A DNA stretch of 64,000 bases from the NCBI GenBank assembly GCA_944472155.2, contig OX235277.1, positions 22,268,804-22,332,803 on the forward strand, in the 5' to 3' direction. A model generated the notes under the pieces. That model made no database searches, was not told the origin of the DNA, and worked only from the letters and a program-made list of their open reading frames with translations. Within the stretch, counting starts at the first letter, position 1. Every line of letters begins with the position of its first letter. The stretch comes from Trichobilharzia szidati. Lineage: Eukaryota > Platyhelminthes > Trematoda > Strigeidida > Schistosomatidae. Made by a program: the position numbers and the translations under genes. Shown here piece after piece: positions 1,953 to 23,370 of the stretch.

Positions 1953-1961
1953 CCAAACCTT
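1953..1961 (-). CDS. Gene A micro-exon, 9 nt (delta type, copy 1)
   Basis: The acceptor CATCACGTTTAG, the 9 nt AAGGTTTGG and the donor GTAAGGAG read K-G-L in phase 1. It pairs with 13388-13396. The same kind of nine-mer (AAGGGTTTG) appears in gene B at 61924-61932, which suggests a shared origin of the two exon series. Confidence 0.65.
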
Positions 1962-2767
1962 CTAAACGTGATGATATTCATAATAAGACATGAAAGAGAA
2001 ATTCAAACACATTACTGTCTTTCGTGCATAGGTCACGATTTTGGTGTCGGCGAATAGCTTGGATATTTTAATAGACATTTTGTAAGAATAATTCTAGGAA
2101 ACTCTTAACGACTGAGTGGACTGGTAAGAGTGATTTGTTGCGTTATTGTCACCGTTAATACATCGCTTAACGTGACGAGTGCTTATTGTGCTCACACCTA
2201 GAAACGTGAGATCTGTATATTATATTTCATTATTTCATTTATCATATTGTACAGTAGTTTAAACAAGTTATGTGTTTTAAACATTAGGCCTAACTCAATG
2301 AGTATTTTAATTATTTGATCGAATAACTGCTTCGAATTTGTAATAAGAAATATAAAGTACAGAACGCACTGGAATCAAAGAAGTATTTCAATTATTCTAC
2401 GAATCTTCTCTAATACTGCAGATAATTTAATTTTTTCCATCGTTCGTTCACGTATCATATGATTTTCTGATATTATTCAAATTCTTATGAGTTTTGATCC
2501 GCTTACGAATGCATGAGTTGATAGACAATTTGGAAGTGTCATTCAAAGGATAGTAAGTGGATATAATAAACTTATTACGTGCCATAATAAACGATTTGAA
2601 AATGTTATTGGAGGACTGAAAACGCTAGTTTCTTACATGAAATGTATTGGTGTCAAGGTTTTCTGGACGCAAGGTTCTAATAAACAGCTTAGCATGGCAC
2701 ACATTGAAAATTTAATTGAAACTGTCGTACAAAAATTTTCCATCATATAATTCCTATTTCAACTCAC

Positions 2768-2776
2768 TCAGTGCAT
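2768..2776 (-). CDS. Gene A micro-exon, 9 nt (gamma type, copy 1)
   Basis: The acceptor TTGTTCTTTGCAG, the 9 nt ATGCACTGA and the donor GTGAGTTG read D-A-L in phase 1. The TGA is out of frame. It pairs with 14563-14571 (E-A-V), and both have an alanine codon GCA in the middle. Confidence 0.7.
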   Translation of the reverse strand: MH

Positions 2777-3248
2777 CTGCAAAGAACAATATACGAAATT
2801 TTCTTATATGCGTTACATTATACTTTATAAATTAAATGGGTTGGCGACTATTTTATCTAGTTTACCGTTTCAGTTTGACTTCTTGTGACTTTGACTCTGA
2901 TACTTTTCACGCTCTGGTAGCTTTCAGTGAATCGCCTTTCTAGTATAGGCGAAACGTGCAGACAGAAGTTTCAATTACGAAATCCTTATGGATGAATCTC
3001 GATGAGGATTGAAACATTGACCAGAAATTGACTGCCCAATGTAGTTTTAGATATAGTTTCACCGTAATTATAGACGGGAGATGTTTTCACGAATGCATTT
3101 GCCAATCCATTTATGACGCCACTACTATACATTTCTTGCCGTGCTAATTATCGTTCGGTCTCCAAGTGATGTCAGTTTAATCCCAGGTCGTAATTTAACA
3201 ATCATCCAGTGATTAGGTTTATAATTCAGCAGTGTTTCCTGTGCTCAC

Positions 3249-3257
3249 CTTTACACT
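3249..3257 (-). CDS. Gene A micro-exon, 9 nt (beta type, copy 1)
   Basis: The acceptor CTTGATTTCAG, the 9 nt AGTGTAAAG and the donor GTGAGCAC read E-C-K in phase 1. It pairs with 15049-15057 (M-C-E). The cysteine codon TGT, the exon length and the GTGAGC donor are kept while the flanks have diverged. Confidence 0.7.
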
Positions 3258-4364
3258 CTGAAATCAAGTAGTACAAAGAAATATATATAAAGGTTATTAG
3301 TATGCAATTTAATAAACATAAGCATACTTCAGAGAACGGTTTAACTTCCTACAGTAAACCTGGGTAGAAAGATGAATATACACAGATTTCGGGCATCCTT
3401 ATCTACATCTTCACTATCCATATTGAGTTTGCGTAAGTATAACTCACGATGCTGAGAGTGAAATAACATTGCATGGACTTTCCTACATGTACTAATCTGT
3501 TGTAGAAATATCAGCAGTGAAACAAATTCTGAATATGCTAACTGAATATATGATTTAGTGTTTCTTGCAAGTACCGCTGAGTAAAATGAAATAATAATAA
3601 ACAAAACCTCTTCAAATGCATAGTCTGGTGTCATTTCTGCAAGTGCGAGACATAACACACAGTCATCAGAAGTGTTTATTTCTTTTGTTTTGGACTCAAC
3701 AATGAAGCCTGCTCATTTCTACTGCATTTACTTAGTCTTCAATGGATAGGTTGAAATTCTGTCATCAATAGTGCGTGAGAAATCGTGTAATATGATCGAC
3801 AGGGAGAAAGTGAATTCATCGCTCTGCGTTGCATCAAATAAGCAGAATTCAATGAATTTCAGATACTAAGTTGTTTCGTTCGTTCTTCAGTCCTGCATAT
3901 TTTCACAAATGTGCATTAACGATGATAAGAATCCACGAGTTTAATTGCCTCACAGGTGAGTAAGTTTTGGCCTAAAAATAGTGCGTTCCATCAACTCAGA
4001 TAAAAGATCGCTTGGAGACTGACTAGATTTAATAATCGCCAGTTGGTGATTTCTTAAACTGCAGAAAGAGATTGCGGAAACATCAAAATCATACTGATAC
4101 TCAACTCATTGTCTAACATTTGTGAATTAAGCGTTTATAAAATGTCTCCAGTAACGCAGGAAAAGCTACATCTGACTAAAGTTCATGTCTGACTGAGTTG
4201 CCTGTACTTTCAAAATAGAGTACCTTGTAGTGAAATGGTTACAAATCTGTTAGTTTCCACTCAATCAGCGCTTTGGTGGAGGGCTAGAAATCACATTTCC
4301 GTAATTCGTGTGAAACGGTGAAATATGTCCGTGAAATTCCAGATATTTAAATAGGTGCACTTAC

Positions 4365-4373
4365 CCGTCTCAA
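4365..4373 (-). CDS. Gene A micro-exon, 9 nt (alpha type, copy 1)
   Basis: The acceptor TTTTCATCTTAG, the 9 nt TTGAGACGG and the donor GTAAGTGC read F-E-T in phase 1. Related sites are at 18268 (intact), 16501 (acceptor lost) and 18785-18793 (both sites weak). The intact donor hexamer GTAAGT is shared by three of the four. Confidence 0.65.
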
Positions 4374-4732
4374 CTAAGATGAAAATATCATTTACGGTAA
4401 TTTGATAATCCAATTCAAGTATCAAATTAAGAACATTTTAAAAGAAACCCACATTTGTCTATCCTCTTTAATAATATTTAATTTTAAATTCACTTTACAA
4501 TAATTTGAAGTAGTGCAATATATTGTTTTTCCAATAAAAAAGCATGACATTCTTAGGTGAAATAAACTTATACTCAACAATAACATACAAACGTAAGGTT
4601 GATTATGACGGAAAATGTAAGCTTAAGAGATAATTTGAAAAATTGATGAAAAAAGGCTTCGATCACTCATATACATGAAATCAAATCACTTAAAAGCCGT
4701 TGCGAGGACTGCGTGTTAAGAAACTCTTTCAC

Positions 4733-4750
4733 ATTTAGCGCCAACTTCTA
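4733..4750 (-). CDS. Weak candidate micro-exon, 18 nt
   Basis: The acceptor GCATTTTACAG and a weak donor GTGAAAG bound 18 nt that stay open in phase 1 and join its neighbours without a stop. No second copy was seen. It is listed because it would fit the gene A frame, but the donor is poor. Confidence 0.22.
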
Positions 4751-4967
4751 CTGTAAAATGCAAGAGGAAGGAACTTCGGAATAGCCTGGTGATACTGAAA
4801 CTGAAGCTGGAATGTGAAACCCTGTTTCACACAATCACCAAAAATTGATCAGACGAACAATATTATTCAAGGCTGCAAAAACCAGTTAGATATCTCATTT
4901 CCAGAATTACGCGTTTGTGCAGAAGATACTCAGTTCTACGAATATGTCTTCAGTGGTCTAGTAATGT

Positions 4968-4988
4968 AGTGATGATGATGATGATGAT
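4968..4988. repeat. (GAT)n microsatellite
   Basis: A run of about seven GAT units in intron-like sequence. No coding role is visible. Confidence 0.85.
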
Positions 4989-5336
4989 AACTTGCAGAGT
5001 TCGAATGTGCACCTTAAAATGTGACATAGTGTTAAGATGGATGCTCAATCCGCTCTATTTGTGAGTGTTGATCAATTGCTGTAATGCCAGTGCACACCGT
5101 CGCAACAATAAAATAATCACTCACAAATACACTGATCTCTACTACAATCATGATGCATATTGAGTTCCGCTGTCACTTTCAGATATCAGGGACACCTCAG
5201 CTCTGATTTACCGGCGAAACAGGAGGTATTGGTTAACAATTTGAAATTTCTCTTCGGCCGTTGGCAAACGTATTTATGTCACGTCATATTAGTCACACAT
5301 ACATTTGTCACCACAATCGCAGATATGTGAACTCAC

Positions 5337-5342
5337 AATAAT
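5337..5342 (-). CDS. Gene A candidate micro-exon, 6 nt
   Basis: This has one of the best acceptors in the window, a long pyrimidine run TTTTTCTTCCCTTTTTAG. It is followed by only six nt, ATTATT, and then the donor GTGAGTTC. In phase 1 it reads D-Y. Six-nt exons are at the known lower limit for micro-exon genes, so it needs transcript proof. Confidence 0.5.
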
Positions 5343-8065
5343 CTAAAAAGGGAAGAAAAACAAACATTAGTCAGACTTTCACATGGGTTTTATTTGAAGT
5401 TCACAGTTCAACATGTGAAACGTCTGCCAGTGTATTCAAGTACTCGGTTTGCTTCCAAAATCTCGTTCAGATATGGCTTACCTAAACTGCACTAAAACCG
5501 AATGGCACTCTGTTCGATATGGAACATGAAATAATTCACTATATCATTCAGTCACTGTGTGCCTGGTAGAGGAATTCAAAACAGTAAAAGAGAAATTATC
5601 GACTCAAACCTCAGAACATCCATTTGGTTCCACCCATTTAGTCAGGAATGCTATTGCGTTTGTGTGGAGGAATGGTCAAGCTAGACGTCATTCACCCCCT
5701 CACTGAAGACATATATGCATTCACATTACAGAATACCATATTTAGGCGAATCGGTGGTATAGCGTAACTAGTGCACAGCAAGCCTTGAACAAATTATTTC
5801 GCCAATAGCAAGCAATGGCCTCCATTCAGAGCGAACTTCCAGTAATTCTCAGTCAAATGCCAACTTTACTCAAAAGGCAGAACCATACTCAGAGTCTGAT
5901 TCCACTGACGTTTCACCAGTAAAATTAAGTGACAACTCACAGAGGAGTTATGCTCACATGGAAGTGATGATTCATTTATTTCCCGATCTGCAGCCCTTGG
6001 CCAAAAGGTGGTTTCTCATAAATTCACTTTGCTGGAGACACCAGGAAATATGCACCCAAGCCTCTGTTGCCCTAAATGCACAATAAGCTGAGAAGAACGA
6101 AATTCGGAATTAAGTTTTCAAAATGCCTTAGTGGAACATAATATTCTGCCAGTCAACGAATAACATCCTCTGGAATGAAACATTTTAGCCAGCGTGTATG
6201 TCACTTCACCTTCTCGCAATGATTCAAACAGATTCGCCACGCTGCAGGTGTGCACTACTTAGATTGTCCGATGAACAGGTAACGAGTAAGTGTCTATCAT
6301 TCGAAGACGCAACAAACTGCGAACTCAGGATAACCAATTGCTTTCGAGTTATCTGACGTTACCACTGGGTGGAAGTGACATCAAGATATCTGAGAATGAG
6401 TGAAGAATTGGTGATTCGAAGATTCAAACCAGGGCTGTTTGTCATGAATAAGCATGTCTGATTTGTAAGGCAAATGTAAATTGAAAGTAAAAATCACATC
6501 ATTTCAGCATAGGCGAACAGAAATGCAGATAACTCAGTGCTAAAATCTCAAAGCTATATCAAAAATATACTGTTTGTAACTATGGAACAGAGGAAACCAA
6601 TGCTTTGTTTCTGGTGAAGTGCTTCATTTGCAGATGGATATCTTCAACAACCGTAACCCTTCAGCTACTCGTGGGAACCAGAATGCTGAAACGACAAAGT
6701 GAGAGGACGAACAAATAACATTATACGCTGGAATAATTCGAGAGAACATGAAACTGTCGCACTCAGAATTCAGCTCACATAACTGCTTCTGATATACTAT
6801 TTTTTCGAGTGCGAAACACAACTACTCAAAAATACATTGGATACGAAATAAAGCATTCATGTTGAAATACAAACAGACAAATAGAAAGTAGACTATAAAC
6901 ACATTACCCTTTAGGTCAGCTATTACAGCAGTAATAAAAATTAAGGAAGGTGAGACGTGTTTATTTTTGAGCCTCTAATCAGCGTAGAAAAGGCAATAAA
7001 TGTTCAGCAGAATTTATAAATTGAAATTTATGAGACTTCACAAATTGGTGCTCCCTCTGTTCTCATTTCGACAGGGATATTCATCAAGAAGTTGTTTTTA
7101 GACAGTTATCGTCAGCATGGTTGATGTAGAAACCTTGAAGAGATTCTTTGACATCTATATCACATTCGAATAGCTGCAACACATAAGGAATCTGTGATCA
7201 TATTATCATACAGAGACATTAACACTGATAAAGTAACTACCATTCAAGAGAATAGTGCAATGTTTCACATATTTCCTGATGACATATATAACGCAGATGA
7301 AATTGAGGAGCAGAATTCATTTAATATAACTTTCGACTCTTCATCATTTTGTACAAAAAATATTTCCAACAGTATTCCATAAGGCTGAAATCTATTCATT
7401 TCCTAAAGGCGAACACGTGTGATATAATAAATGTGTACTGTATACACGATATTAAAATGCAATGAACATACCGTTTCTCGCTTCAAACCCAAAATTTATG
7501 CAAACAATAATTTGAATTCCATAACGAATAAGGGTGACTCTGAGTTCAATTAAATATCTTGGATTTTTATTTTTCTACTTCATGAGTTGAGGCCTAAAAT
7601 ACCTCTGAATAGATAAAAGTCCTTCCCTGAGAGCTATCAATATATTATTTAATAACTTCGTTACGAGTAACAATTAAGAACTGGTTTTCTAGAAAATTAT
7701 CGTCAGCAAGACTGCACCGAATATATAACTCATGAAACAAAGTTTAAAATTTGAAAGACTCAGCAGACCATCTCGAGTTAACTTCGGTTAATCTGTTCAA
7801 AATCATCGTAGAATAATAAAAGTGGTTTCAAAGGAGAATACAAGAGATCTCACTAAAGCTTGCATTGTAAATAAGGCAATAGAAGAAACATCTCAATGTA
7901 AAGATACTGCAGTCACCAACAAGGTGTGTATTAATTCAAAAAGTCTCGAAAATATTGATTAAAATACTTGAGGTATTGATGATTGTATTAATAACCTTTA
8001 TTTATTAAATGAGAATCTTTAAATTATTTCAATGGAACAAAAAGATGAAGCAAAACGCGTCTCAC
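5343..8065. other. Intron-like stretch of gene A
   Basis: Apart from the exon at 7472-7480 I see no gene. A further 12-nt candidate at 6908-6919 (CTGACCTAAAGG, acceptor GCTGTAATAG, weak donor GTAATG) is open in phase 1 but poorly supported. No transposon remnant was recognised. Confidence 0.3.
7472..7480 (-). CDS. Gene A candidate micro-exon, 9 nt
   Basis: The acceptor TTTTGGGTTTGAAG, the 9 nt CGAGAAACG and the donor GTATGTTC read A-R-N in phase 1. The exon resembles the alpha exons in composition, but homology of its flanks is not clear. Single copy. Confidence 0.45.
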
Positions 8066-8074
8066 CCCCTTTCA
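8066..8074 (-). CDS. Gene A candidate micro-exon, 9 nt
   Basis: The acceptor CCTCACCACTTTAG, the 9 nt TGAAAGGGG and the donor GTGAGACG read M-K-G in phase 1 after an exon ending in A. It is the first candidate to the left of the RTE insertion. No second copy was found, so support comes only from splice-site quality, length and open phase. Confidence 0.5.
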
Positions 8075-8624
8075 CTAAAGTGGTGAGGACAATCAAGTGT
8101 ATACGTTGACATGTTTTAAACGTATTTCTCAGCAAGATTATATTTTCTGATAAATTTCACAGCACTTGGTGATAGACACATCCCAATTTATGCAGGTTTG
8201 TGATTTGTTTCTGTGGAAAATGAAACGATATCATGAAATTTCCATTATGTCAGGCTATCATTCACTACCCGCTCAGAATTCTGTCTAAACGTTGGATTAT
8301 TTATTCGTGTAACAGTTAGTCTAATTGTCTTTGAAATATTGATTTCGTTGACACCTATGCTTCTTTCAGATTATACTTATGCCAACATTCAGCTTACTGT
8401 ACATGATTACCATGGATTGCATTGAAATTTCTATATGTCATACATTTGGTTCCCTTGATAGATTTCGGTGTAAGCAATACAATTGTCAGTTTAAGATTTC
8501 ATCATCAGTTTATACGTTTTCAAAATAGAAAAGACGAGGGAGGGGTAAGACAGAAAACAGAAGAAATTTACAAAGAGTGTTAGCTTGTAGGTTCACATAA
8601 CAACTCGATAAACAAAACCTCTCA

Positions 8625-8800
8625 TGGCTACCGTGGCCTGAGTGCTCTAGTGGATAACCCATTGACGTTTGGAACTGTAGATAATGAGTACGAAACTCGG
8701 TTGGAACATCAACACCCACTGGAGAATGCAGGTACATCCAGATGACGAGTCCCATATATGACAAAATGCGCTTCCTGGATTCCACTGCTAGTCATCATCC
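8625..8800 (+). mobile_element. tRNA-derived SINE with hammerhead-like core (Sm-alpha-like)
   Basis: The head GTGGCCTGAGTGCTCTAGTGG resembles a tRNA box A region, and CGAAACTCGGTTGGAAC sits where a box B would. Downstream, ATCCAG (8736-8741) and CTGGAT (8775-8780) form a perfect 6-bp stem. They enclose GATGACGAGTCCC and ACAAAATGCG, close to the hammerhead ribozyme core (CTGATGAGTCC...GAAAC). The schistosome Sm-alpha SINE is known for this combination. The core here carries substitutions, so activity is doubtful. It lies in a gene A intron, antisense to the gene, just upstream of the RTE target site. Confidence 0.6.
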
Positions 8801-8934
8801 ACCAATTCAAAATCCATGACAGTTTAAAACATTGAGATTTGCTCAAGGAGTTAAGATCACCAAACTAGATGACTAATTACTGCAATCAAAATCAAAATTC
8901 AGCTACCAAGGGAGTGAGATAATAATCACACCCT

Positions 8935-8950
8935 ATTTCCGTATGCATAA
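8935..8950. repeat. Target-site duplication, left copy
   Basis: The 16 bases ATTTCCGTATGCATAA are repeated exactly at 12184-12199, immediately outside the RTE element. Confidence 0.9.
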
Positions 8951-11900
8951 CCTCGCCTAGATTACTAGGTCACTAGTATTCTAGCCGGTCCCAAGCCCGG
9001 ATAAAGAGGGAGGGTTGGGGCGTGGTGCTAGCAACTCCACCCCCAAAACTTAACCAAATTGCTACTAAAACTTCAACGCACAAATATATTCAAAATTCTA
9101 AAATTACAAATAGTGACCTTATTTTTCGCTGGAATCGGGGAAGTGAAATGACGCGGGCTGGTGAAAGCCTTCGGGAAGCCAGTCAGCCGATGTGCCTTCT
9201 TTCGATGAAGGCGAAAATAAGGATGGGGACGTGGAATGTTCGTACAATGTACGAAGCTGGGAAGGCTGCTCAGGTAGCCGCAGAAATGAGGAGGTATAAA
9301 ATCGAAGTGTTGGGAATCTGCGAGAGCAGATGGAACGGATGTGGAAGGAGCCAACTGTCAACTGGAGAGACAATAATCTACTCCGGTCACCCAGAGGACG
9401 ATCACGAGCACACCGAGGGAGTAGCCATCATGATGTCACCAACAGCGGCTAAAGCCCTCATGCAGTGGGAACCAATCTCCTCCAGGATAATGACAGCCAG
9501 GTTCAACTCAAAAGGAAAAAAGGTTACAATCATTCAGTGCTACGCGCCTACAAACGCCTCAGAACATGAGAAGAAGAAGGACTTCTACAGTCAACTACAA
9601 ACAGTAATGGACAACGTCCCAAAGAGCGATATCAAAATCCTGATGGGCGACATGAATGCGAAACTGGGAGGAGACAATACAGGAAGAGAACTCACCATGG
9701 GTCGTGAGGCCCTCGGTGAAATGAACGAAAATGGTGAACTCTTCTCAGACTTCTGCGCCTTCAATGATTTGGTGATTGGTGGCAGTGTGTTCAAAAACAG
9801 GGATATACACGAGGCAACATGGATTTCACCAGATGGACACACCAAAAACCAGATAGACTTCATTTCAATCTCAAGGAAGTGGAGACGGAGCCTACTGGAC
9901 ACAAGATCTAGGAGAGGAGCAGATGTGGGTTCAGACCACTATCTAGTACAAGGAACATTCAAGGTGAAGCTGAAAGCCTCGAGGATACCTGGGGATAGGC
10001 CACAATGCAAGTTCAACACGCAAAAACTGAAAGACACAACCACAAAGGACACTTTCACTGCAACTGTCAGAGCAAAGCAGGAAACACTACGTAGCACCAC
10101 CGAGGAATCATCCGTGGAAGACCATTGGAACTCTCTGAAGGTAATTTTCAACGAAACGTGCTCAACGGTTTTAGGAAGAAAGAAGAAACAAGACAAGGAA
10201 TGGCTCTCAACAGACACTTGGAAACTAATAGAGGAGAGGAGAAAGGTGAAAGAAAAAATGATTCAATGCAAAGATGGACAAGAGTAAGAGACGCTGAACT
10301 CAACTTACACAGCACTGGAAAAAGAAGTGAAGAAGAGTGCCAGGAAGGACAAAAGACAATTCTTCGACAACCTGGCTACTGAAGCTGAGAAGGCAGCAGG
10401 CAAAAGGGACCTGAGGACACTATATCAGATAACCAAGTCTCTATCCGGGAAGAGATCAACACAAGTGAAACCTATAAAAGACAGCCAAGGGAACCCAATA
10501 ACCAAAGAAGAAAGACAGATTAAACAATGGGCGGACCACTTCAAAGGACTCTTGAACCGACCACCACCTGCAGACCGTCCAGCAATACCAACAACAGCAC
10601 GTACACAACTGCAAGTTGACACCAACCCTCCAACGAAAACTGAAGTCATGAATGCAATCAAGCTTCTGAAAGCTGGAAAAGCAGCTGGGCCAGATGGAAT
10701 ACCCCCGGAAGCACTGAAAGCGGACCCAGAAACGACGGCAGATATGCTGACTCCATTATTGCAAAAGATCTGGAAAGAGGGAAAGGTGCCTACTGACTGG
10801 AGGAAAGGTTACCTCGTGAAACTACCAAAGAAGGGCGACCTGGGACTCTGCAAGAACTGGCGAGGAATCATGCTCCTGTCGACGCCAAGTAAAATCTTGA
10901 GTCGCATCATCCTAGAGAGAATCAAGGACGCGCTGGATACAGAACTCCGACCAGAACAAGCTGGATTCAGGAAAGGCAAATCATGTTCTGACCAAATTGC
11001 AACTCTACGCATCATCATCGAACAAAGCATGGAATGGCAATCAAACCTCTACCTCAACTTCATAGACTTTGAGAAGGCCTTCGACAGCGTTGACCGCGAA
11101 GTAATTTGGAAACTACTCGAGTACTACGGCGTACCCCAAATATTCATCAACCTCATTCAACAACTGTACGACAACGGCACATGTCAAGTGATCCACAACG
11201 GAAAACTCAGCGAAGCGTTTGGAGTAAACACAGGAGTCAGACAAGGGTGCTTATTATCACCAATGATATTCCTAATTGTGGTGGACTGGATTATGCGTCA
11301 GACAGTGGGAAACGAGAAGACAGGGATATCCTGGACCGACGTGAAGAACCTAGAAGACCTGGATTTCGCGCGTGGATGATTTATATTTGATGTCACACAA
11401 GATCGAAGACTTACAAGCGAAAACCGACAAACTGGTCGAAGAAGCAGCAAAGACAGGACTCCAGGTGAACATAGACAAGACGGAGGTTATGAAAATAACC
11501 AACCAACAACAACAACAGCAGCAGTAACATCCAGCGCCAATCACCATCAACGGGAGGGATTTGAAAGAGGTCACTTCATTCACTTATCTAGGGAGCATTG
11601 TCTCAAATACAGGAGGAACGGACGAAGATGTCAAATCGAGAATCGGGAAGGCGAGAAACACATTCATCAACCTGAAACCAATCTGGAAATCTTCGTCACT
11701 CACCATCAACAACAAAATTCGGATTTTCAATACAAACGTGAAGTCAATTTTGCTTTACGGATCAGAAACTTGGCGAGTCACCAAGAATATTTTCAACAGG
11801 TTGCAGACCTTTATCAACAACTGTCTTCGCTCCATACTGAAGATTAGATGGCCAGAAAGAATCACAAACAAGAAGCTATGGGAACAAACGAAACAGGAAC

Positions 11901-12183
11901 CGATCGCCCAACAAATATGCAGGAGGAAGTGGAGATGGATTGGACACTCGCTGAGGAGGCCGTTGAGTGACATCGCGCGTCAAGCCCTCGAGTGGAACCC
12001 GAAAGGGAAGCGGCGAGTGGGTCGTCCAAGGGTGACATGGAGGAGATCGTGTGAGGAGGAGATGAAACAGTATGGAATAACATGGACGCAAGTGAAAAGT
12101 ACAGCACAAGACAGAAGCAAGTGGAGACGTGCAGTTGAAGCCCTATGTTCCACTAGGAACCCAAGGGAACAATAATAATAATA
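8951..12183 (+). mobile_element. RTE-clade non-LTR retrotransposon, near full length, inactivated
   Basis: The element has a short GC-richer 5' UTR, one long reading frame with an apurinic-type endonuclease followed by reverse transcriptase, a very short 3' UTR and an (AAT)n tail at 12171-12183. Exact 16-bp target-site duplications flank it, as target-primed reverse transcription produces. The 3.2-kb length and layout match RTE-type elements, which are abundant in schistosomes. The intact flanking repeats show it is a single, fairly recent insertion. It lies in the intron between micro-exons at 13388 and 8066, in antisense orientation to gene A. Confidence 0.92.
9022..12175 (+). pseudogene. 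RTE endonuclease-reverse transcriptase, three lesions
   Basis: The endonuclease starts at about 9217 (GTWNVRTMY) and continues with CESRW, GDMNAKLG and SDHY near 9940, the family's catalytic positions. Reverse transcriptase motifs follow: AGPDGIPPE (about 10684), KNWRGIMLLS, QAGFRKGKSCSDQ, NFIDFEKAFDSVDRE (11056-11100) and GVRQGCLLSP. A C-terminal region ends in VEALCSTRN. The frame is broken at three places. An in-frame TAA lies at 10285. A 4-base excess at about 11371-11374, inside the FADD active-site box, shifts the frame. A TAA at 11525 follows a CAA/CAG run. Otherwise the frame is open, so the copy is young but should not make active enzyme. ATGs at 9022 and 9148 are both possible starts; conserved sequence begins only after 9148. 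Confidence 0.9.
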
Positions 12184-13099: not shown

Positions 13100-13387
13100 C
13101 TGGTTTTGGAAACAATGTTCTGTTTATGCGAAATATCTGATCCACTCTCAATTTTAGGGTAATCAGTAGTTTTACACAGTGCCGTTCACATCATTTGGAA
13201 TTTTACGGCACAGTTAAATATGTCTAACTCTGTTTAAGTTGCGGAGGGTACCTTGAAAGGGTAACTAAATTTTCAGCAACATTCGAGAACAAATAAGTAG
13301 AAAAGAATATTTTTCATATAATAAAACATTTCACTGTGTTAATGGATGGAATTTGAAATGAAGTTCTTATTCCACAATCCTCCTTAC

Positions 13388-13396
13388 TTGCTTTCT
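13388..13396 (-). CDS. Gene A micro-exon, 9 nt (delta type, copy 2)
   Basis: The acceptor GGTCTTATTTTTAG, the 9 nt AGAAAGCAA and the donor GTAAGGAGG give E-K-A in phase 1. The counterpart is 1953-1961, with the same length and the same GTAAGGAG donor. The next candidate exon to the left lies beyond the RTE insertion, so the intron here has grown by the element's 3.2 kb. Confidence 0.7.
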
Positions 13397-14562
13397 CTAA
13401 AAATAAGACCGTTATAATAAATATCATGAAAGACAAATTTGAAGTTATTCATGGTCTTCATACAAAACCATGTGTAAGGTGAAGTTGGGCGTTCCTAATA
13501 TTTAACAACATTTATGTGGGGAATACTTTCAAGTAACACTTGACTGATGAGTTGATTGGTATGAGTAACGAGTTGTACAGAACTGAGACAGGTCGCATCG
13601 CCAATGATGCATTATCACATGTGACGAATATTCTTTGTGTTGAAGATTATATCCAAAGTGGCAGATTGAAGATCATCAAAATTTTGCTTTGAATGTTAAT
13701 GTCATTCTCATTTTTTAAATACTTGAGGATAAAATAAATTTTCACAAACATCCACGATTTCATCTGCGTTTTTCTGTTTCTACTGAGTTTCCACTTAGCA
13801 GCTAATATTCATGTCCATATGTGAATAAAATCTGTCTTAATTCTTTGCTTAGTAATACTACTACTATTTCACTTGCGATCGACTCTGTACCTTAGTGTGT
13901 CGAACGTTGATTATTTTGTTTTCTCATATTGACACAAAGTAACTGTGCATTTCATATACTTAAGCCACAGGCACCTCAACATTTGAGGTTTGCACATAAT
14001 ATTTCATTGTTTCATGTACAATGTATTACTGTGGTTAAGATTGATCCTGTGTTTCTCATGTATTATACGTAACTGAACATATATTTTAATTGATCATTTG
14101 GATTAGTTGTATCGATTTAATAAAAGAAATCAACAGTAATTATCTACCCATCGAACTGATATGATATGAAAGCGCAGAAGGCAGTGAAACCAAAAAGGTC
14201 ATCCGATTAGGCCACAAATCTTCTTTGTTGCTGAAGATATGTTTGATCATTCCACAGACTATTTAACTCTCCGATGATTTGCTTATAATAATGAAATACA
14301 AATGAGTTTTGATCCATTGATGAATTCATAAATGAATTAGAAATTGAAAAGTGCCGTTTAAAGGATGTTAAGTGGATACATTAAAGATATTATCTGCTAT
14401 GATACATGAATCGATCATGATACTGGTAAAAGCATAACTCTGATTTCTCACAGTAAATTAAGGATTTCTTATCCCAACGCCATAATGTCTGCGTAATCAT
14501 GGTTGGAATGACCATGTTTATTGAAACTGTGAAAAGAAATTGCTGTTTCCATTTCAACTTAC

Positions 14563-14571
14563 CTACTGCTT
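14563..14571 (-). CDS. Gene A micro-exon, 9 nt (gamma type, copy 2)
   Basis: The minus strand shows the acceptor TTTGTGTTTACACAG, the 9 nt AAGCAGTAG and the donor GTAAGTTG. In phase 1 it reads E-A-V. The apparent TAG at its 3' end is out of frame. Its counterpart at 2768-2776 also has 9 nt with a consensus donor. The distance to the beta exon (486 bases) nearly matches the other copy (481). Confidence 0.7.
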   Translation of the reverse strand, partial: KQ

Positions 14572-15048
14572 CTGTGTAAACACAAAATATCTCATTGAGT
14601 TACATTACGCTTTATACATCAAGGAGGGGCATCCCCTAATACATGCTTCTGAATTTATCTGACTTTTACTTTGCTGCATTTCATGCTGTGGTAGTTTCCT
14701 GTTACATGCTTTGGGCGTATTTATCTTCATTCTGTCTTGTATATAATTTCAGTGTGAACAGCTGAATATAGGCAACAGGTATGCACGATAGGCTGAATTA
14801 CGAAATTCTCTTGAATGGATACACCACAAAGTGACTGCACATCACAGTTTAGGAAATGGTTTCATTGAAACTTTAGACAGAAGACCATTTCACGAACAAG
14901 TCCTCGATTCTGGTGGAACAGCATGAATGTATATCTGTGGCTTCTTAAAGCTGACTTATCCATGGATCGTATAGATTCATACTGAGACCAACATTTGAAA
15001 ATCAGTATATGATTAAGTTGTAAATTCAGAACTGTTTGTCATGCTCAC

Positions 15049-15057
15049 CTTCACACA
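15049..15057 (-). CDS. Gene A micro-exon, 9 nt (beta type, copy 2)
   Basis: The acceptor CAAATTTTAG, the 9 nt TGTGTGAAG and the donor GTGAGCAT are clear. In phase 1 it reads (x)TG-TGT-GAA-G, which is M-C-E after the preceding exon. It is the counterpart of 3249-3257 (AGTGTAAAG, E-C-K) in the other copy of the duplication: same length, same donor GTGAGC, same cysteine codon, although the flanks differ at many positions. Conservation of length and both splice sites across diverged copies is good evidence of use. Confidence 0.7.
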
Positions 15058-16500
15058 CTAAAATTTGTCAGTATGAAAATAAAATTGTATGTACGAAATT
15101 ACTAGTATCCAATCTAAAGATAATAATTTCGGTGGCTTCATAGCACTTCAGAATACATCATAATTTTCTTCTTAAATTTATGGTTTTACCTATGCTATCT
15201 CGCTTGAAGATGATAGAAACCATGATAGAAAAGAAACCATTATTCAATAATTTCAGATGAAAATTCTGTACAGCATATGAACACTGTTCAGAATGAAGCG
15301 ATTATTGTTATTGTTGTTGTTGATATGATCATCGAATACAGATATTATTCGTGAATATTCCAATACTGCAAATATTGAGTCTATGTAAATATATCTCAAT
15401 AGACAGACACTGTGACATCATCATATACATTTTTGAACATTTCAACTTTTGGAAGTATTACTCATCGAGACCTAAAAATGAATAGGAATTTCGACTTTGT
15501 GATGGCACATGAATTATCCATGAGCAACTCAGATATGATTCTTAATATTACTTCGAAGCTACAGTAGAAATGTCATCAGTGCTAAAAGATTCTGATAAAG
15601 TGACTGAACATATGATTCAGTGTTTCTTGGATGTACGAAATATGTACATTCGGATGTACGAATGAAATTATGAGCCATTCAGTCCTTGTAAGAACCACAA
15701 TTAACAATCCAGTAATGTGATCTGTATAACTGTTATTAATGTTATTCGATAAAATTGGATGCAATATTGTACCAGATGCTGAAATTTCACAACCCGACAT
15801 AAGTACTCTTCGGAATAAAGCAAATTATTATGATCATTTCAAATTGCATAGTCTATTGTCATTTAACAACAAATGTCACAAGAGTGATACTTGATTGGAA
15901 GCCATCGAAAATTTATATTCCCTTCCTGTTGAAAACACTAAACTCCACTGAATTCACCATGGAAGCCTATTCATTTTACTACATTGCCTAAGTCTTCAAT
16001 GAAAAACTAGAACTTTTGTCACAAATGAAGTGTCAGAAAAAGCGTCAGACGGCGATTCTGGAAAACATTAACGTTTTGATATAAAATACAACGTAGTTTT
16101 TCATTCTGTACACCATCACTTGTTGTCCTATCGAATAAACAGACTCCGAGGAAGTTTAGGTACTGAAGTGTTCCATTCTCTCCTCAGTCACTTGAGCACA
16201 GAAATACTAAGCTCATTATGAAAAACACATGTATGTTGAGAACCTTCATTTTCAACCAACTAATGTTTTCAAATGAAGAAAGTGTTTTGTCTGTGTGGAA
16301 ATGCCGCCCCAACAACTCATGGGCATTGTGTTATCTTTGGTTGTGAAGTTGAATACCTGTCAGCGAATAATGTTGATAAATACGTATCTTTCTTCTGAAA
16401 ACATAGATTCAAGGGAAGACTAGGAGTCACTTTTCCATTACGTGTGAGAAATGATGAGATTTGCCCATAAACTTCCATATTTTTGGGTCTGTGCACTTAC

Positions 16501-16509
16501 TCGCCTCAA
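16501..16509 (-). pseudogene. Damaged alpha-type micro-exon in duplication copy 2
   Basis: This is the counterpart of the exon at 4365-4373: TTGAGGCGA followed by an intact GTAAGT donor, with the same upstream stretch (TGATATTCTCATACTGT against TGATATTTTCATCTTAG). The acceptor AG is replaced by GT, so normal splicing to it should fail. Because the exon is a multiple of three, skipping it leaves the frame intact. Confidence 0.5.
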
Positions 16510-16754
16510 ACAGTATGAGAATATCATTTCCAATACTTAAGTTAATCAATTTTGATTGAAGATCAGGAGCATTTTTACTAAAATGAATTTTAGTGGTTCT
16601 ATTTGAAGTAGCTTTGTTTCAGTCATCAATATTTTACCTAAAAACTAGTTCACATTACCTTAAGGACTACGTTGATGCTGTTTCCAATACCAATTCCTCT
16701 GATATAAACTAACAATAAAATTACTTCGCGGTGAGACTGTCTCAGAGACTGACT

Positions 16755-17230
16755 TGAGTCGGCAAAATACCATTGATATCCTGTGGGTTCAACGCAGGTG
16801 TAAGACACCGAATAATCAGTTCTGTGCATTGCAAAATGAGCCAATGTCTTCAAACAATAACTGACACATATTTCAATACTATTAACCCGGTTGATGTCAC
16901 CGTATTAACTGCTGTTAATGAAGCCTTAACTGCGAGAAGAGAAAGAGGCTTGGACGTGAAAAAATCAACTCCACCTGAGAAAACCAGGTGAATAACAAGG
17001 AAACTTGATGACACATAAAGAATATAAACAGCGAAGTTATTTTTTTGCCTTGAACATGGGAACAGAATGAAATGGGTTGCTGGAAACATTTAGGAAGTCA
17101 GTCACAAGATAGGCCTTGTTTTGATAAAAAGAAAACTAAGCATGATGAAATGGAATTTTCCGTACAATGTACAAAGCTTAGAAGGCTATCTAGGCTGCCA
17201 AGGAAATGAAATTGCACAGAAATGCCAGGA
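16755..17230 (+). mobile_element. Decayed RTE fragments
   Basis: At 16781-16815, GFNAGVR resembles the GVNTGVRQG motif of the RTE reverse transcriptase at 11221. From 17156, CCGTACAATGTACAAAGCT followed by GAAGGCT matches the endonuclease start of the intact copy (CGTACAATGTACGAAGCTGG, 9240). AACTCCACC at 16968 recalls its 5' UTR. The order shows at least two pieces, heavily mutated. The short open frame at 16773-16991 is a remnant, not a gene. Confidence 0.55.
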
Positions 17231-18169
17231 CTTTGTCAGAGACAACGGAATGAGAGGACACTCTATAAATTGTGTACTGAAATGTCAGTGATCTAGCCAG
17301 GTCATTCAGACTGTAATGCATTTGCCTCTTTTGGCATGAACAATGATTTACTATAAACCTTACTGACTAAAGCGTTTGAGGCGAAAGCATTAGGAAGCAG
17401 TCGTGATGATGTTATTCTGCTGAGTTTTCGTGTGTACCTTGGTTTTTGTCCCAAACCTCACAGGCGCTTCATTAACCTAGAATAAAGTATTTGGAACATT
17501 CTGAGGATAAAGTTTGGTAGTAATCATCTTTTTGTGGCTGACCTACTGACTTCGACGAAATCAGTTTGTGTAACCTGTGAAAAAGAGAAGCGTTAATTTA
17601 CCTATTCACTTCGTCAAATGTGTCGTCGTTAACATTAAACTTTAAACACCTTCGGCATCTACCGGCGGTCGCGTCATTTATTTGCTTAACGTTGTGCTCA
17701 TTCATTTTGATAGATTCACCTTGACCTTACATTATTTATGGTGCTATGCAAGTGATTTCGCTACAGGCTAGACTGCTACAATGGTCGCAGACAGATTAAT
17801 ATGTAGACTATTCTACAAGTGTATTCAAAATTATAACTGCACTTATCTATGTTGCTGCACTTAAAGGCTCCCTAACGATTTTGTATTCACACAATATTAT
17901 GAAGGAAGCTTCATTTAATGTGAGTGATGTAAACTAAGAAGACACCACCTGAAAGACTTTACTTTCGATTACGACAAAAGAACAGAATATTTATCAGAAC
18001 TTTCATGTTCCATGTCCATTATCTACTGATGAAAAAACATCAAACACGGACATCCCTTATTTTGTTGCTTAGGTGAATTCCGATGATGTGTTGATTAAGG
18101 TGTATAAAACTTAAAAAATAAAATATACAGTTGCAAATAATGGTATTTTTTTCTCATCTTTTCAAATAA

Positions 18170-18640
18170 TGGATTGAGGCTAGACTAGGAGTCACATTTC
18201 CAAAGTGAATAAGAAAGTATGAAATACATTAACATACCTCTCGATTTATTCAAATTAGTGGACTTACTCTTCTTATCTAGTATAAAAAGATCATTGAAGT
18301 TACTTTAATTATACTTTTTCAAAAGAAAATCAGAAACATTTAAAATAAAGTGAATCCTTCTCGTTTGTATTTTGTGAAGCTACACTTTGGTTTCACTATT
18401 TTCTTTTCACACTACACTATGTAGGAAACTGTATTTATTAACAGCGCTTCAAACTGTAAAGACGCAATCTGAATGTCATTCAATTTTGTTTATGGAAATG
18501 AAACAGAAAATCTAATGGAACTACGAAGTTCTTTGTGCATTATTTACTAATGTTAAAACCATCATGCAGATACTTCTCTTATACTGTCACCAAGATGAAA
18601 TCAGCTATTATGATGAAGATGTATAAAAAAATAGGAAAAT
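18170..18640. repeat. Alpha-exon block, further copy with an intact exon
   Basis: It begins with GACTAGGAGTCAC, also found at 16416 in copy 2, and runs through the 18268 exon. It then continues with a stretch (about 18370-18640) related to the one that precedes it (about 17880-18160), indicating local tandem duplication. Confidence 0.55.
18268..18276 (-). CDS. Gene A candidate micro-exon, 9 nt (alpha type)
   Basis: The acceptor TTTTTATACTAG and the donor GTAAGTCC flank the 9 nt ATAAGAAGA. In phase 1 it reads D-K-K when preceded by G. The surrounding block (18170-18640) is related to the sequence around 4365-4373, around the damaged site at 16501, and to the next block at 18700-18990. This exon is therefore one member of a repeated exon type, here with both splice sites intact. 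Confidence 0.6.
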
Positions 18641-18699
18641 TTCATACCGAGAAATGGTTACAAATACTTCTCCTCTTTTGCGGAGCATAATAGCTTCAT

Positions 18700-18990
18700 G
18701 GTAGCCTGAGATTTTTTTTTCAAAATGAGTGAGAATGAATGAAATATATTTAAATACCTCCAGATTTTAAAATTGGTGAACCAACTCTTCTCTTTTCGTA
18801 TTCGTAGAGCAGCTTCATCGCCTAAATTATACCGTCTCAAACGAAAATTAGGAATACTTTCATTAAAATTCTTTTTTGTCTCACCTTATTTGATGAAGCA
18901 CCAGTTTGGCAAGTTAAATTTTACTTGAAAATTATTTCACATTAACAAAATGGCCATACTGACACTCTTTATAAAGCCCTTTCCACTAAT
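18700..18990. repeat. Alpha-exon block, degenerate tandem copy
   Basis: It aligns with 18174-18440: a shared AAATACAT/AAATATAT stretch, ACCTC, AATT-GTG, CTCTTCT and AAAATTAGGAA/AAAATCAGAAA. The exon position (about 18785-18793) has donor GTTGGT instead of GTAAGT and no clean acceptor, so it looks dead. Confidence 0.5.
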
Positions 18991-19239
18991 GTAAAGTCGC
19001 TGTACAATTATTTGACGATGAGGCAATCTGAGAAGCTGTCTTCGATTGGTGGGAAATCACTGATGTATTTGGCGTTTACTAACAGTGAGCTCGGAAAAAT
19101 AGCAAGTTCTGTTCAGTCGGAATGGAGCTAATATACCTTAACGAATAAGTAGATATATTTCAATACAATCACTGTGGGGAATTTCAACATAATTACTGTT
19201 CTTAATAATCCCCATCCAATTCATTAGTCAATATAAATT

Positions 19240-19450
19240 CCAGTCAGAGAGGGACGACTGGGCGTTGGGCTAGCCGAAACAACAACCCAGCCTCTACAGA
19301 AACTTCACAGCACAAGGAACATATAAGGATCAAAAGTATTCTTCACTTGAGTTGGAGAGATTTTAGGCTTTCGGCTACTAAACTCTCTTGGGCCGCCAGC
19401 CATACCGATAATCGTCCTTTCGATGAAAGCGAATACTGTGAAGATGGTAG
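19240..19450 (+). mobile_element. Decayed RTE 5' fragment
   Basis: GAGAGGGACGACTGGGCG, then TTGGGCTAGC and ACAGAAACTTCACAGCAC, and later TCCTTTCGATGAAAGCGAA, follow the 5' end of the intact copy (9005-9215) in order, with many changes. Confidence 0.6.
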
Positions 19451-19484
19451 GGATTTTCGCGCATTATATGATGGCAAAAAAGCC

Positions 19485-19565
19485 GTTGTGGCCGGTGGCA
19501 TAGCGGTTAGGACGCTTGCCGACCATGCACATGGTGAGAGGTTTGACCCCCGGCCAGCGCACTCC
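19485..19565 (+). mobile_element. tRNA-like repeat, copy 1
   Basis: It contains GGTGGCATAGCGGTTAGGAC (box A) and GAGGTTTGACCCCCGG (box B region), with GCCGACCATGCACATGGT between. It matches the copies at 61672-61747 and 51665-51745. It interrupts decayed RTE sequence, so it arrived later than the 19240 fragment or joined two fragments. Confidence 0.7.
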
Positions 19566-19595
19566 TTTGCCTCGCTAAGCCAGAAATAATGCTGG

Positions 19596-20290
19596 TGAAG
19601 AGGAAAGGTTGAGCATGGGGCTAGCAGCCGTATCCTGAAAAATTAAACACTGCTACAGAAACTTCAAGCCTCTAGCTTGAAGCCCTATGTTGCACTGGGA
19701 ACGTGAAGGATTAAAAACAGCCGTTGGAATAGCAGGAAAAAGATTCAGGAATCTTCGGGAACATTCTGAATTGAGCCCTTGAAATGTTAAACCGCTTTGT
19801 CAGCTGTCAACTGTAGTCACCCAGATGACAAACGTGAGCATAGTGACAAAGTGGCTGTCATCATTTCGCTAACAGAGCCCAAGGAGTTTCTGCCGTGGGA
19901 ACCAATCTCCTTCAGGATAATGACTTTAGTATTCGGCTCAAAAAAGAATGAAAGTTATAACTGTCCACTGCTATGTGAATATTAACAAGTAACAAAAGAT
20001 GAGAAAGAATAAGATTTCTTTAGTCAACTGGATAACATTCCTAATGCCATGATCGAAATTCGAATAGATGGTATGAATACTTAAATGAGGGCAGACATAC
20101 AGGGAAATGATTCATAATAGGTCAAGAGGCTTTCGACGAAATCAATGAGAATGGAGGACTTAGCGAACTTCTGCGCATTCATTGGTTTGAAGATTGGATA
20201 GAGCGCGTGCACGAGCAAATATATACACAAGGCAATATTGATTTCACCTGACGAAAACACAGAAAAAGCAAAGAAAAATACTAATATATG
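19596..20290 (+). mobile_element. Decayed RTE endonuclease region with an embedded 3'-end piece
   Basis: It begins with a 5'-end match (GCATGGGGCTAGCAGCC). It then shows CTTGAAGCCCTATGTTGCAC, which belongs to the RTE 3' end (12137-12156 in the intact copy), and resumes in the endonuclease (GGGAACCAATCTCCTTCAGG at 19899, against 9468 in the intact copy) up to the IHEATWISPDG counterpart near 20230. Numerous frameshifts. The mixed order implies nested or recombined copies. Confidence 0.65.
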
Positions 20291-20309
20291 TGTAAGACTT
20301 GGGCGCTGT

Positions 20310-21380
20310 GGTAGTAAGTGATTCCATATCTGTTTTTTGTTATCATTTATGAATTGGAAAGTCAGGAAGGAGAACTGCCAATGTTAGATTGCAGTGTAAA
20401 AGGGGAAGAAGACGGGAAGCTAAACACTAGTGTTTACAGGAAACCCACACATTCAAACCCATATTTGGACTTCCCATCCTATGTCAGTAAAAATAGGGTT
20501 GGTGAAATGTTGAAGTGACAGAGTACAAAAACCATGTATTGTCAAGGAAAATCCAAGGCAGGAAGTGAAACATATAAGAGAAGGTTTGGAACCTAATAAA
20601 TACCCTGATACATTTGTCAAGAAATATTTAGGGAAATGTAAAAATAAAATAAAGAATCATAGTAGTGATAGTGATAATAATAATAACAATATTAATGAAG
20701 ACATGAAAGTCAAATGGGCCCAAGACAACATCAACAGTGAGCATTCTAAATCATCAGTAGTAATTCCATACAAGGAAGTGACCTCGGAAACCTTACGCAG
20801 AATTCTTAACAAGGCAGGAATAAAAGTGGCATTCAAACCCACAAACTCAATTTGAAACAAGCTTTGTCGATTAAAGAATCCTGTGTAGCTTTTAAAACAA
20901 AACAATTTAGTTTATCTAATACCCTGCAATGATTGTCAGGTCAAATACATAGGTCAAACTAGTAGAACAGGGGCATTCAGACTGGTTGAACATAAAAACC
21001 TAGCAAAATCTAGATTGGTTGACCTGAATAAGATAAGAAATCTAGAGAAAAGTTCAGCTATAGCACTACATGCAGTTACACACAACCACACAATAGGATG
21101 GAATTGGATGGTAGTTTTCAAATTTAATGTCACAGGGTGTAGGGAGAGATTGATAACAGAGGCTTTGTTTGTCAAATCAACTGGAAATACACGTAACAGA
21201 AATGTTTCAACACCTGTCCACCCAGATATCTGAGAAACTCTACTACCCCTACGACAAATAAGAGAGGGCAAAAATCTTTAAAACTCAAGTTTTGAATTCG
21301 TGTGATTATAACTGATATGATTATGAACAACAAATTTTGTTCGAAACGTCATCCAGTAAATAATACTGTTTCACTGTGTG
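20310..21380 (+). mobile_element. Penelope-like element, decayed 3' half with GIY-YIG endonuclease
   Basis: Fragments in three frames give LPMLDCSV, then TSVYRKPTHSNPYLDF (20430-20475), the end of a Penelope reverse transcriptase. These are followed by VVIPYKEV and KVAFKPTNS, the linker. From 20911 comes the endonuclease: VYLIPCNDCQ, KYIGQTSRTGAFRLVEHK and ALHAVTHNHTIGWNW. The CC-type GIY-YIG motif with the following EHK and AxHxxxxxHxxxW is diagnostic of these elements. At least two frameshifts and a stop at 20886 show it is dead. It lies antisense to gene A, in the intron after its second exon. Confidence 0.85.
20665..20696. repeat. Low-complexity AAT/GAT tract inside the Penelope remnant
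   Basis: GATAGTGATAATAATAATA and following bases encode an S/D/N-rich insertion in the remnant's linker. Confidence 0.6.
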
Positions 21381-22428
21381 TTACACATAATAAACAAACT
21401 AATACGGAGGAAAATACGTCTGACTGATAAGACTTCGAAAGATCTTGTTAGTTTCACGGTTTTCACAGATTTACCGGCCCCTTATAATGGAAAATAAATA
21501 GATGAGTTAAGCTAAAGAGCGTGAATGCTATGCCAAACAACCCTTTTTCTTCTTGATAGTTTGTCAATACACCAAGACAAAGCGCAAGTAATTTTTCGTT
21601 CAGGCTTAATTATAGCGGATAAAATTGATGGGCCTAATTTTCTTATATGAGTTACTTATAAGAACAGATCGATTATACTTAGATTAGAATTTATAAGTGC
21701 ACGCAAGTGAAGATTAACAAAGAGAGAAACTCCTGTCCCACATTCACAATATGAACGGCAAGTAACAGGGTTTGAAAAGAGACAACAAAAAGGTTCATCA
21801 GGGTGCTCACTGTAAAAGATGGTTACTTGAAACTGAAAACGCCTGATTGAGGAAGTAGCTGTTTGTAATTGCCAATGAAATTTGACTTTGGTTCGACTAC
21901 TCGCTCCATTAGGACAACCGTATAAACATATATCTGAGAATGTTAGAAATGTATAATTTTCGCTAAGTACACCATATTTTACTTTCATTCAACAAATGAT
22001 GAAAAGTCATAAACCCTAAAAACAGTAAAAAATGACTTGACTAGTTTTATGTCGATTGGGACTCATGGGATATTAACAAAATGAGGCTAATTTTTTTATG
22101 GCACTGTTGCATATGCTACAGCTTCTTACTGACAGATCTTACAGTTCAACTGCGAACAAAGTGGTCTAGAATTCTTCACGGTTAAATTAAAGCACTGAAT
22201 GAAGAACCATCACCACCCAAATACTCATCACTTCAGGCTGATGTGTCCTAAACAATAACGACCAGGATGGAAATTCCTAATATATTCAATGCCATTTCAG
22301 TTAAGCACAAGCAACACTGAAACCGATTCAGGCAGCTTTTTAGAAATGAACTCTAGAACAAAAAGCTTCAAGTTATTTCTATTCAACCAAATTAAAACGC
22401 TCAGTGTAAATTGAATAACATTAAATAC

Positions 22429-22443
22429 CTTCGTCTTTCTTCC
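22429..22443 (-). CDS. Gene A candidate micro-exon, 15 nt
   Basis: On the minus strand the order is a strong acceptor CCTTTTTCAG, 15 nt GGAAGAAAGACGAAG, then the donor GTATTT. After the phase-1 G of exon 1 it reads G-K-K-D-E, highly charged, and exits in phase 1. It is the first candidate downstream of the signal exon, after an intron of about 860 bases. Seen in one copy only. Confidence 0.5.
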
Positions 22444-23303
22444 CTGAAAAAGGTTCAGAACAAAGTTTTATGTCCTTGAAAAAGTTGCTGTTATTAACAC
22501 AATGTGATGTTGTAGCTCATCATGTGATGTGTACCAGTCAACGTATCTTAGTCACATAAATCATATAAATATACCAAAATATCTTTGTCAAACAAAAGTC
22601 ACCGTAAACGACTCGTTAATGAAAAGTCAGCGATGGACTTTAATGTTGTGAAACCATCCTATACAAAGACATCTTAAAGTTGTATTTCCAATACACTAAT
22701 GGGATCATTATACAGTTAATAATGATAACATAACTGATCTCAGTTAACAATAGTCAATACGAGATTCGTTTTTGATGATATATGCAACACCGTTTCTTCC
22801 ACATATACCTCACTTCATTGAGCATGACACAGAAATTTCCAGTAAAATTGTGACTGATTTACCCTTGATGAGCACCCATTAATAAGAAAACTGATCTTCT
22901 GTCCCTAAATATACTAGATTTAGTTGAAATGTCACAGCACAAAAACTAAAATTATTGCCTTAATTACTTATTCAAATATGTTGTGCGTAAGTGAAATATC
23001 ATTACACTTTTAGCGGGAGTTGACGTTTAAACATGCCTGTTTGGCACTTCATTCAGAACATTTATTTTAATCTGCACTCCTAATTGTTTCTGTCAGTTTA
23101 CTTATGTGTTATTCATGAATCGTGATTGTATTGCTCCATGACCTTTCATAATACGAAAATCTTGCATGTAAATACCAGTGACAGGGGAATTCTTTCCGCC
23201 GAAGGGTTCATTCATGAAACAGATTCAGCTATTAAGATGAATTATTATACAAAAACTCGTTCATACAATATAGAAATTAAACCAAAAAAACATCAGAACT
23301 TAC

Positions 23304-23370
23304 CTGAGGTACCTTCAGTGTAAATCACCATGATGAACAAGCAGAAAAGCAGGCACAGAATAACTTTCAT
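23304..23370 (-). CDS. Gene A exon 1: signal peptide of a secreted micro-exon protein
   Basis: The ATG lies at 23370-23368 and the exon has 22 codons plus one base before a GTAAGT donor (donor GT at 23303-23302). It begins MKVILCLLFCLFIMVIY: one lysine, a hydrophobic core of about 15 residues, then a short polar stretch TEGTS. That is a textbook cleavable signal peptide for entry into the secretory pathway. The exon is too short to stand out as an open frame. It is preceded by a short 5' leader and a TATA box about 55 bases upstream, and is followed leftwards by phase-compatible micro-exons. MEG first exons in schistosomes have this size and content. Chance remains possible, since a hydrophobic stretch with a donor could occur randomly, but the coincidence of ATG, hydrophobic core, consensus donor and TATA box makes it the best single coding exon here. 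Confidence 0.7.

Follow-up and report, generated by a model that had tools for sequence, protein, structure and literature searches.

What does the minus strand of this locus encode? The window is the whole stretch of 64,000 nucleotides considered here (C7:22268804-22332803 within a 1.11-Gb assembly). A sequence-only reading had placed in positions 1953–23370 an unannotated micro-exon gene (MEG), comprising a signal-peptide exon and at least twelve exons of 6–15 nt. Comparison with other copies in the assembly indicates that this gene is very probably one member of a giant tandem array of MEGs, most likely from a schistosome-like flatworm. The evidence lies in the DNA itself, that is in the exon slots, their phase and strand, the array of copies, the gain of exons by block duplication, and exons that diverge faster than the adjoining introns. 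The gene that starts in the window is termed U1. Its upstream neighbor U2 has its 3′ half in the upper part of the window, and the two were read as one contiguous stretch of 210 kb. They are largely collinear, with 87.9% identity across 72,367 aligned positions. For the first 23 kb, four copies were compared: those of the window and U2, and those starting near C7:20947252 and C7:21353091. The last two are close to each other.

The gene begins with exon 1 (23304–23370, minus strand), a 67-nt exon of 22 codons plus one base that starts with ATG, ends in phase 1 and has the donor CAG/GTAAGT. A signal-peptide exon ending in phase 1 had been claimed, and it lies at exactly this position and is intact. 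The signal peptide was judged from the hydropathy of the ATG exon; a search of Pfam and PDB with this peptide and with that of the candidate last exon (see below) gave no match. The region was sought genome-wide using 801 bp around the exon as query, with the best 40 of 76 candidates scored, and the resulting counts are lower bounds. There are at least 27 near-full-length matches with 82–100% identity. C7 carries at least 26 of these, distributed over both strands from 19.60 to 23.55 Mb, and C3 carries one. At least 14 weaker matches are found on C3, C475 and C593. All 25 of the near-full-length signal exons that were read have the ATG and a donor of GTAAGT or GTGAGT, and are free of indels and stops. 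Eight of the weaker matches were read, and in seven the 67-nt form and GTAAGT donor are kept at 62–66% DNA identity. The TATA box proposed upstream fares less well; TATAAA is present at that place in 9 of 25 aligned copies, and it is no longer counted as support. The hexamer ACAGTT is located directly 5′ of the ATG (23371–23376, minus strand) in 25 of 25 aligned copies, and its ACAG could be the acceptor for a 5′ or leader exon. The copy on C3 (28.95–29.00 Mb) is 97% like the start region of the window and is followed by further slots in matching order and orientation; this gene copy either was transposed recently or reflects an error of assembly.

Thirteen exon slots follow exon 1 within the window, all on the minus strand. 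GT and length are kept in all four copies at every slot, and AG in four copies at ten slots, in three at two and in two at one. The second exon has 15 nt (22429–22443; AG kept in three of four copies, and among 25 aligned copies lost in L031 and L044). It is followed by 9-nt exons at 18268–18276, 15049–15057, 14563–14571, 13388–13396 (a hypervariable slot) and 8066–8074, each with AG and GT in 4/4 copies, and then by a doubtful 9-nt exon (7472–7480) with AG in 2/4 and GT in 4/4. A 12-nt exon at 6908–6919, found by the four-copy comparison, has four different sequences among the four copies and both splice sites in all of them. The strand continues with exons of 6 nt (5337–5342, 4/4) and 9 nt (4365–4373, AG in 3/4 and lost in U2), and with 9-nt exons conserved 4/4 at 3249–3257, 2768–2776 and 1953–1961, the last with a weak score. 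Twelve slots thus keep both splice sites in at least three of the four copies, as many as had been proposed, and the thirteenth, 7472–7480, is doubtful. The sequence-only reading stated just where its list begins and ends, and we infer that the other twelve slots found are the same twelve. In the window copy all 13 junction codons are free of stops, as had been claimed.

Several of these exons sit in blocks duplicated inside the gene, and exon number therefore increases through block duplication. An old duplication pairs 1849–4447 with 13295–16575, with 15049–15057 in the block duplicated with 3249–3257, and 14563–14571 the block duplicate of 2768–2776. There are also old duplicated units around 16.4–19.2 kb. 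A block of 3.77 kb with one 9-nt exon is present three times in U1 and once in U2.

The window displays a strong bias of strand and length. Using a generic splice model with a score of at least 4, positions 1–23303 contain 17 AG-exon-GT units of 6–15 nt and length divisible by three (3n) on the minus strand and none on the plus strand, against an average of 1.9 (standard deviation 1.3) in 40 dinucleotide shuffles of the same region. The density is thus not the same on the plus strand or in shuffled sequence. Minus-strand units of 6–15 nt with lengths not divisible by three number three at this score. A stricter textbook acceptor model gave only one or two units, and the model was relaxed afterwards. 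A held-out splice model, with 20 exons from beyond the window as its training set and tested against 100 shuffles, finds 11 minus-strand 3n units at threshold 9 (shuffle mean 4.4, maximum 12), eight at threshold 11 (mean 2.1, maximum 7; three of the eight are units rejected elsewhere) and five at threshold 13 (mean 0.8, maximum 4). The window by itself is good but not overwhelming support, and the decisive support comes from the other copies.

The same bias is seen across both units. Candidates of 6–15 nt on the sense strand divide into 45 of 3n and nine of other lengths in U1, and 32 and seven in U2; on the antisense strand the corresponding numbers are 7 and 16 in U1, and 4 and 11 in U2. Units kept in both U1 and U2 number 28 of 3n and two of other lengths in the sense direction, compared with three and nine in the antisense direction; among the 28 are a unit lying within the signal exon, a nested one and a threefold duplicate. 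In the four-copy comparison (1–23.3 kb, 6–15 nt, mean score at least 4) eight sense and no antisense units are 3n, and none and one, respectively, are of other lengths. Stops in phases 0, 1 and 2 occur 10, 0 and 12 times in 33 U1 units, and 5, 1 and 11 times in 29 U2 units; the model used for this was retrained on these same exons, making the unit counts circular. The phase kept open is phase 1, in which the signal exon ends.

The range given by the sequence-only reading ends at 1953, but the gene leaves the window. The catalogue for U1 comprises 35 micro-exons of 6–27 nt, of which 27 have 9 nt, with a total of 366 nt over ∼66 kb. It includes the doubtful 7472–7480 and three duplicates, and 6908–6919 is a later addition beyond the 35. 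Stops at junctions are found in 0 of 36 adjacent pairs, 1 of 35 single skips and 26 of 666 ordered pairs. At 66.4 kb from the ATG of U1 a strong acceptor kept in both units leads into 24 codons and a stop. This candidate last exon has its U2 homolog at 44671–44595, within the window, and that of the window's own gene lies outside it at C7 ∼22225752. It is longer than the 67 nt earlier given as the longest exon, and lies outside the range then covered. Micro-exon candidates number 31 before and two after this point in U1, and 28 and one in U2. The region recurs on C7 at 21 near-full-length and five partial places, besides short matches. Length periodicity, phase, strand, conservation among paralogs and this sharp end of exon density thus all support the MEG architecture that had been claimed.

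The borders of the gene could be misplaced: the unit might contain two genes, or the true last exon might be elsewhere, which we consider rather unlikely. The 24-residue peptide of the last exon is found 23 times, 18 of them without an internal stop. The exon is termed a candidate only, because a similar share of open frames might result from drift of non-coding sequence. Between two copies there are seven base changes in this exon, and all six of the differing codons specify other amino acids, too few for significance. A scan for signal-type first exons gave a weak candidate inside the span (+31632, unaligned in U2) and another beyond it (+72882), and two convergent starts ∼133 kb apart are each without a paired 3′ region. 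Against wrongly drawn borders, the drop in exon density falls at homologous positions in U1 and U2, and for 20 of the 26 C7 starts a 3′ region lies on the same strand 35–82 kb downstream, ahead of the next start; for the remaining six none does.

The gene can be compared with its paralogs exon by exon. In 36 automatically chosen units 87 of 387 sites differ between U1 and U2 (22.5%), compared with 12.4% in flanking introns (ratio 1.81, Fisher p = 6.5e-8); the units are partly dependent, since six belong to the U1 block present three times and two pairs correspond to the same U2 exon, and one (+91408), located past the candidate last exon, is probably a false unit. The ratio is 1.72 when units are chosen from U1 alone. 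For an earlier list of 32 units the divergence was 22.1%, whereas 2000 null draws averaged 12.1% and reached 18.9% at most. Comparison with the two other copies, which are close to each other, gives ratios of 2.46 and 2.71 on 69 exon sites each. The splice signals themselves differ at 3–4%, partly because the choice of units requires AG and GT.

Two slots were traced genome-wide by their flanking bases, with reversed sequences as controls. The slot at 13388–13396 has 25 matches with ten different 9-mers, 16 of them without mismatch in 24 flanking bases, and none in the reversed control; a DNA search of the region found 26 places. Stops in phases 0, 1 and 2 are present in 11, 0 and 4 copies. 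The second slot is 40.7 kb from the ATG, and in U2 is located at 61173–61181 of the window. It has 28 matches with 13 different 9-mers, 18 of them without mismatch in 25 flanking bases, and controls gave 0 and 1. Among the copies seven amino acids (S, T, D, K, N, F and H) are encoded by the first whole codon, which in U2 is a stop, and all 28 have ATG as the following codon. Variation peaks at codon positions 1 and 2. A phase-1 stop occurs in one copy, and a phase-0 stop in 27 of the 28. This variation is read as diversifying selection on single codons, with a host as the probable selecting agent. The exons differ more than the surrounding DNA, which suggests an arms race, perhaps with a host.

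The excess could in principle arise from mutation bias, or from gene conversion homogenizing the introns, instead of selection on protein. Conversion is common among tandem paralogs. Yet decoy AG-3n-GT units in the same DNA are without excess, with ratios of 0.99 (weak sites) and 0.94 (AG and GT kept), and in the 28-copy slot the variation falls on the first two positions of a single codon, beside a codon that is fixed. An origin of this kind is thus unlikely.

Several observations weigh against the reading as a MEG array. The held-out splice model sets the window region apart only to a modest degree. The second exon, compared in 25 copies, exceeds its flanks in variability by a small margin (0.244 compared with 0.205 and 0.179), and its AG is lost in two of them. 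The signal exon is barely less variable than its surroundings (0.096 compared with 0.105–0.162), with mean nonsynonymous divergence (dN) of 0.125 and synonymous divergence (dS) of 0.142; given these dN and dS values and this small difference, it keeps an open frame more than an exact peptide. One of the eight distant signal exons has no ATG. The last-exon peptide is interrupted by a stop in 5 of 23 copies. U2 contains the in-frame stop at 61173–61181 and has lost the acceptors of two slots, and so some copies or exons are probably broken or skipped. The stops, the lost acceptors, the missing ATG and the closeness of dN to dS in the signal exon speak for an array of former MEGs, with most copies (perhaps including that of the window) no longer making protein and the exons drifting. 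Drift would not raise exon divergence above that of introns, however, nor would it keep splice sites and an open phase 1, and the near signal exons are open in 25 of 25. General decay therefore appears improbable.

A MEG array under diversifying selection thus remains the preferred reading, and a schistosome origin of the gene is likely. Aphid bicycle genes, a micro-exon family of secreted proteins in another animal lineage, have mostly phase-2 exons. A family of that kind in place of a flatworm MEG is a quite remote prospect, given two elements inside the gene that resemble those enriched at MEGs of Schistosoma mansoni, where hammerhead short interspersed nuclear elements (SINEs) and Perere-3 are found (PMC4350168). 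The first is a type I hammerhead ribozyme (Rfam) at 8736–8780 (plus strand). The second is a non-long-terminal-repeat (non-LTR) retroelement at 9022–12175 (plus strand), with three open frames matching endonuclease, reverse transcriptase and DUF6451. In two other gene copies ∼8949–12171, containing the retroelement, is missing, and the place of the ribozyme aligns. Both elements are consistent with a schistosome-like fluke. Older fragments, 62–66% like parts of the same retroelement, are located at 17018–17310 and 19807–20266. A pair of short repeats (19487–19562 and 61748–61672, 83% identity) has the look of perhaps a tRNA-derived SINE.

Finally, AT-rich DNA offers many AG-N-GT triples from which those divisible by three might have been picked, and short units do arise by chance, at 4.3 per shuffle at the loosest threshold of the generic model; the held-out model at its own loosest threshold does not beat the best shuffle (11 against 12), and the strict model found one or two units. 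Chance is nevertheless scarcely credible given the bias of strand, length and phase, the conservation among paralogs, and two slots with 25 and 28 copies across the genome; the paralog comparison refutes it for the set as a whole, and single weak units such as 7472–7480 could still be chance.

The MEG reading suggests the following mechanism. Transcription of the minus strand would start just above 23370, and exon 1 would supply the signal peptide. At least 35 symmetric phase-1 micro-exons of 6–27 nt, mostly 9 nt, would then be spliced across ∼66 kb before the candidate last exon. From their symmetry, exons could be skipped with the frame kept, giving many isoforms per gene, and the signal-peptide sequence points to a secreted product. 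The variation would be an answer to selection, probably by a host. Tentatively, the whole array might act as a system of combinatorial diversity, in which ∼26 neighboring genes have a single fixed set of splice slots in common, every slot being filled with a hypervariable codon cassette of two to nine residues. If so, the choice of paralog together with exon duplication and skipping would generate a very large repertoire of secreted variants, with a role like that of antigenic-variation arrays performed by nine-base exons.

The predicted gene model is a MEG under the working definition of PMC7653826. The N-terminal signal peptide corresponds to the hydrophobic first exon with its ATG, which is retained by all 25 near copies and by seven of the eight distant ones. 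No micro-exon reaches 70 nt and all are multiples of three in length; the list is 3n by construction, and the 3n bias was tested against other lengths. MEGs of S. mansoni have 10–20 short exons, mostly of 15 bp, with introns up to ∼5 kb, and the largest named run is eight consecutive meg-2 genes (PMC10526429). The present gene is similar to these in its signal-peptide exon, many symmetric 3n micro-exons, long introns, clusters formed by tandem duplication and (predicted here) secreted products. It differs in having at least 35 micro-exons, 27 of 35 with 9 nt, over ∼66 kb, and at least 26 starts within 4 Mb. Across three Schistosoma species the largest tandem cluster in Table 1 of PMC4350168 has six genes (MEG-2), and MEG-17 and MEG-25, with 22 and 15 members, are mostly dispersed. 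Those MEGs show species-specific expansion, and their mature parts outpace the signal peptides in evolution (PMC4350168). Such expansion, fast mature parts and an association with hammerhead elements and retroelements are common to those families and the present one. Selection was tested there by ortholog dN/dS, and here by comparing exons with their own introns and by a codon varying in a fixed slot.

MEGs are also known outside the genus Schistosoma, recognized by conserved C-terminal domains. In the tapeworm Hymenolepis microstoma ten tandem genes occupy ∼430 kb (PMC7653826). They are likewise a tandem family with a common signal-peptide motif, which as printed differs from that found here when compared by eye. 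The present array is larger than those named elsewhere, of 6 (PMC4350168), 8 (PMC10526429) and 10 genes (PMC7653826), and in a limited search of the literature no report of a MEG array this large was seen. One MEG, MEG-8.2, is reported to lyse host cells (PMC12998952). Few secreted proteins of blood flukes are as poorly understood as MEGs, and exons this small are often missed by gene finders. Here exons of 6–15 nt are detectable through comparison of paralogs alone, without RNA. The dozens of aligned paralogs also permit a direct test of diversifying selection on micro-exons, with the introns adjoining each exon serving as its control.

The part of U2 lying in the window contains further slots on the minus strand, most of them identified in the two-unit comparison. 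Descending from the upper end, these are 9-nt exons at 63010–63018 and 61924–61932, the 9-nt slot at 61173–61181 already described (found 28 times genome-wide, with an in-frame TAA in U2), and 9-nt exons at 60211–60219, 58022–58030 and 57187–57195. They are followed by an exon of 21 nt (56939–56959), of which the window's own gene has two, one of 27 nt (54920–54946), and a 9-nt exon at 47781–47789 that is threefold in the window's own gene. The candidate last coding exon of U2, with 24 codons and a stop (44595–44671), has moderate support. Inverted duplications with 59–62% identity are arranged around it, pairing 37116–37667 with 54974–54430, and 38818–39829 with 53930–52882.

In the window's own gene a number of other candidates were dropped as chance, retroelement sequence, weak sites or stops across copies. 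These are 21475–21480, 17551–17574, 17462–17476, 16754–16780, 10813–10839, 10562–10567, 10309–10314, 9896–9907, 6363–6389, 4733–4750, 3954–3971, 2198–2212, 1557–1568 and 1462–1467. Two further units, 7603–7626 (24 nt) and 497–502 (6 nt), were neither accepted nor dropped. Outside the window, an intron of U2 ∼24–37 kb downstream of its signal exon contains ∼33 tandem copies of a 399-bp unit.

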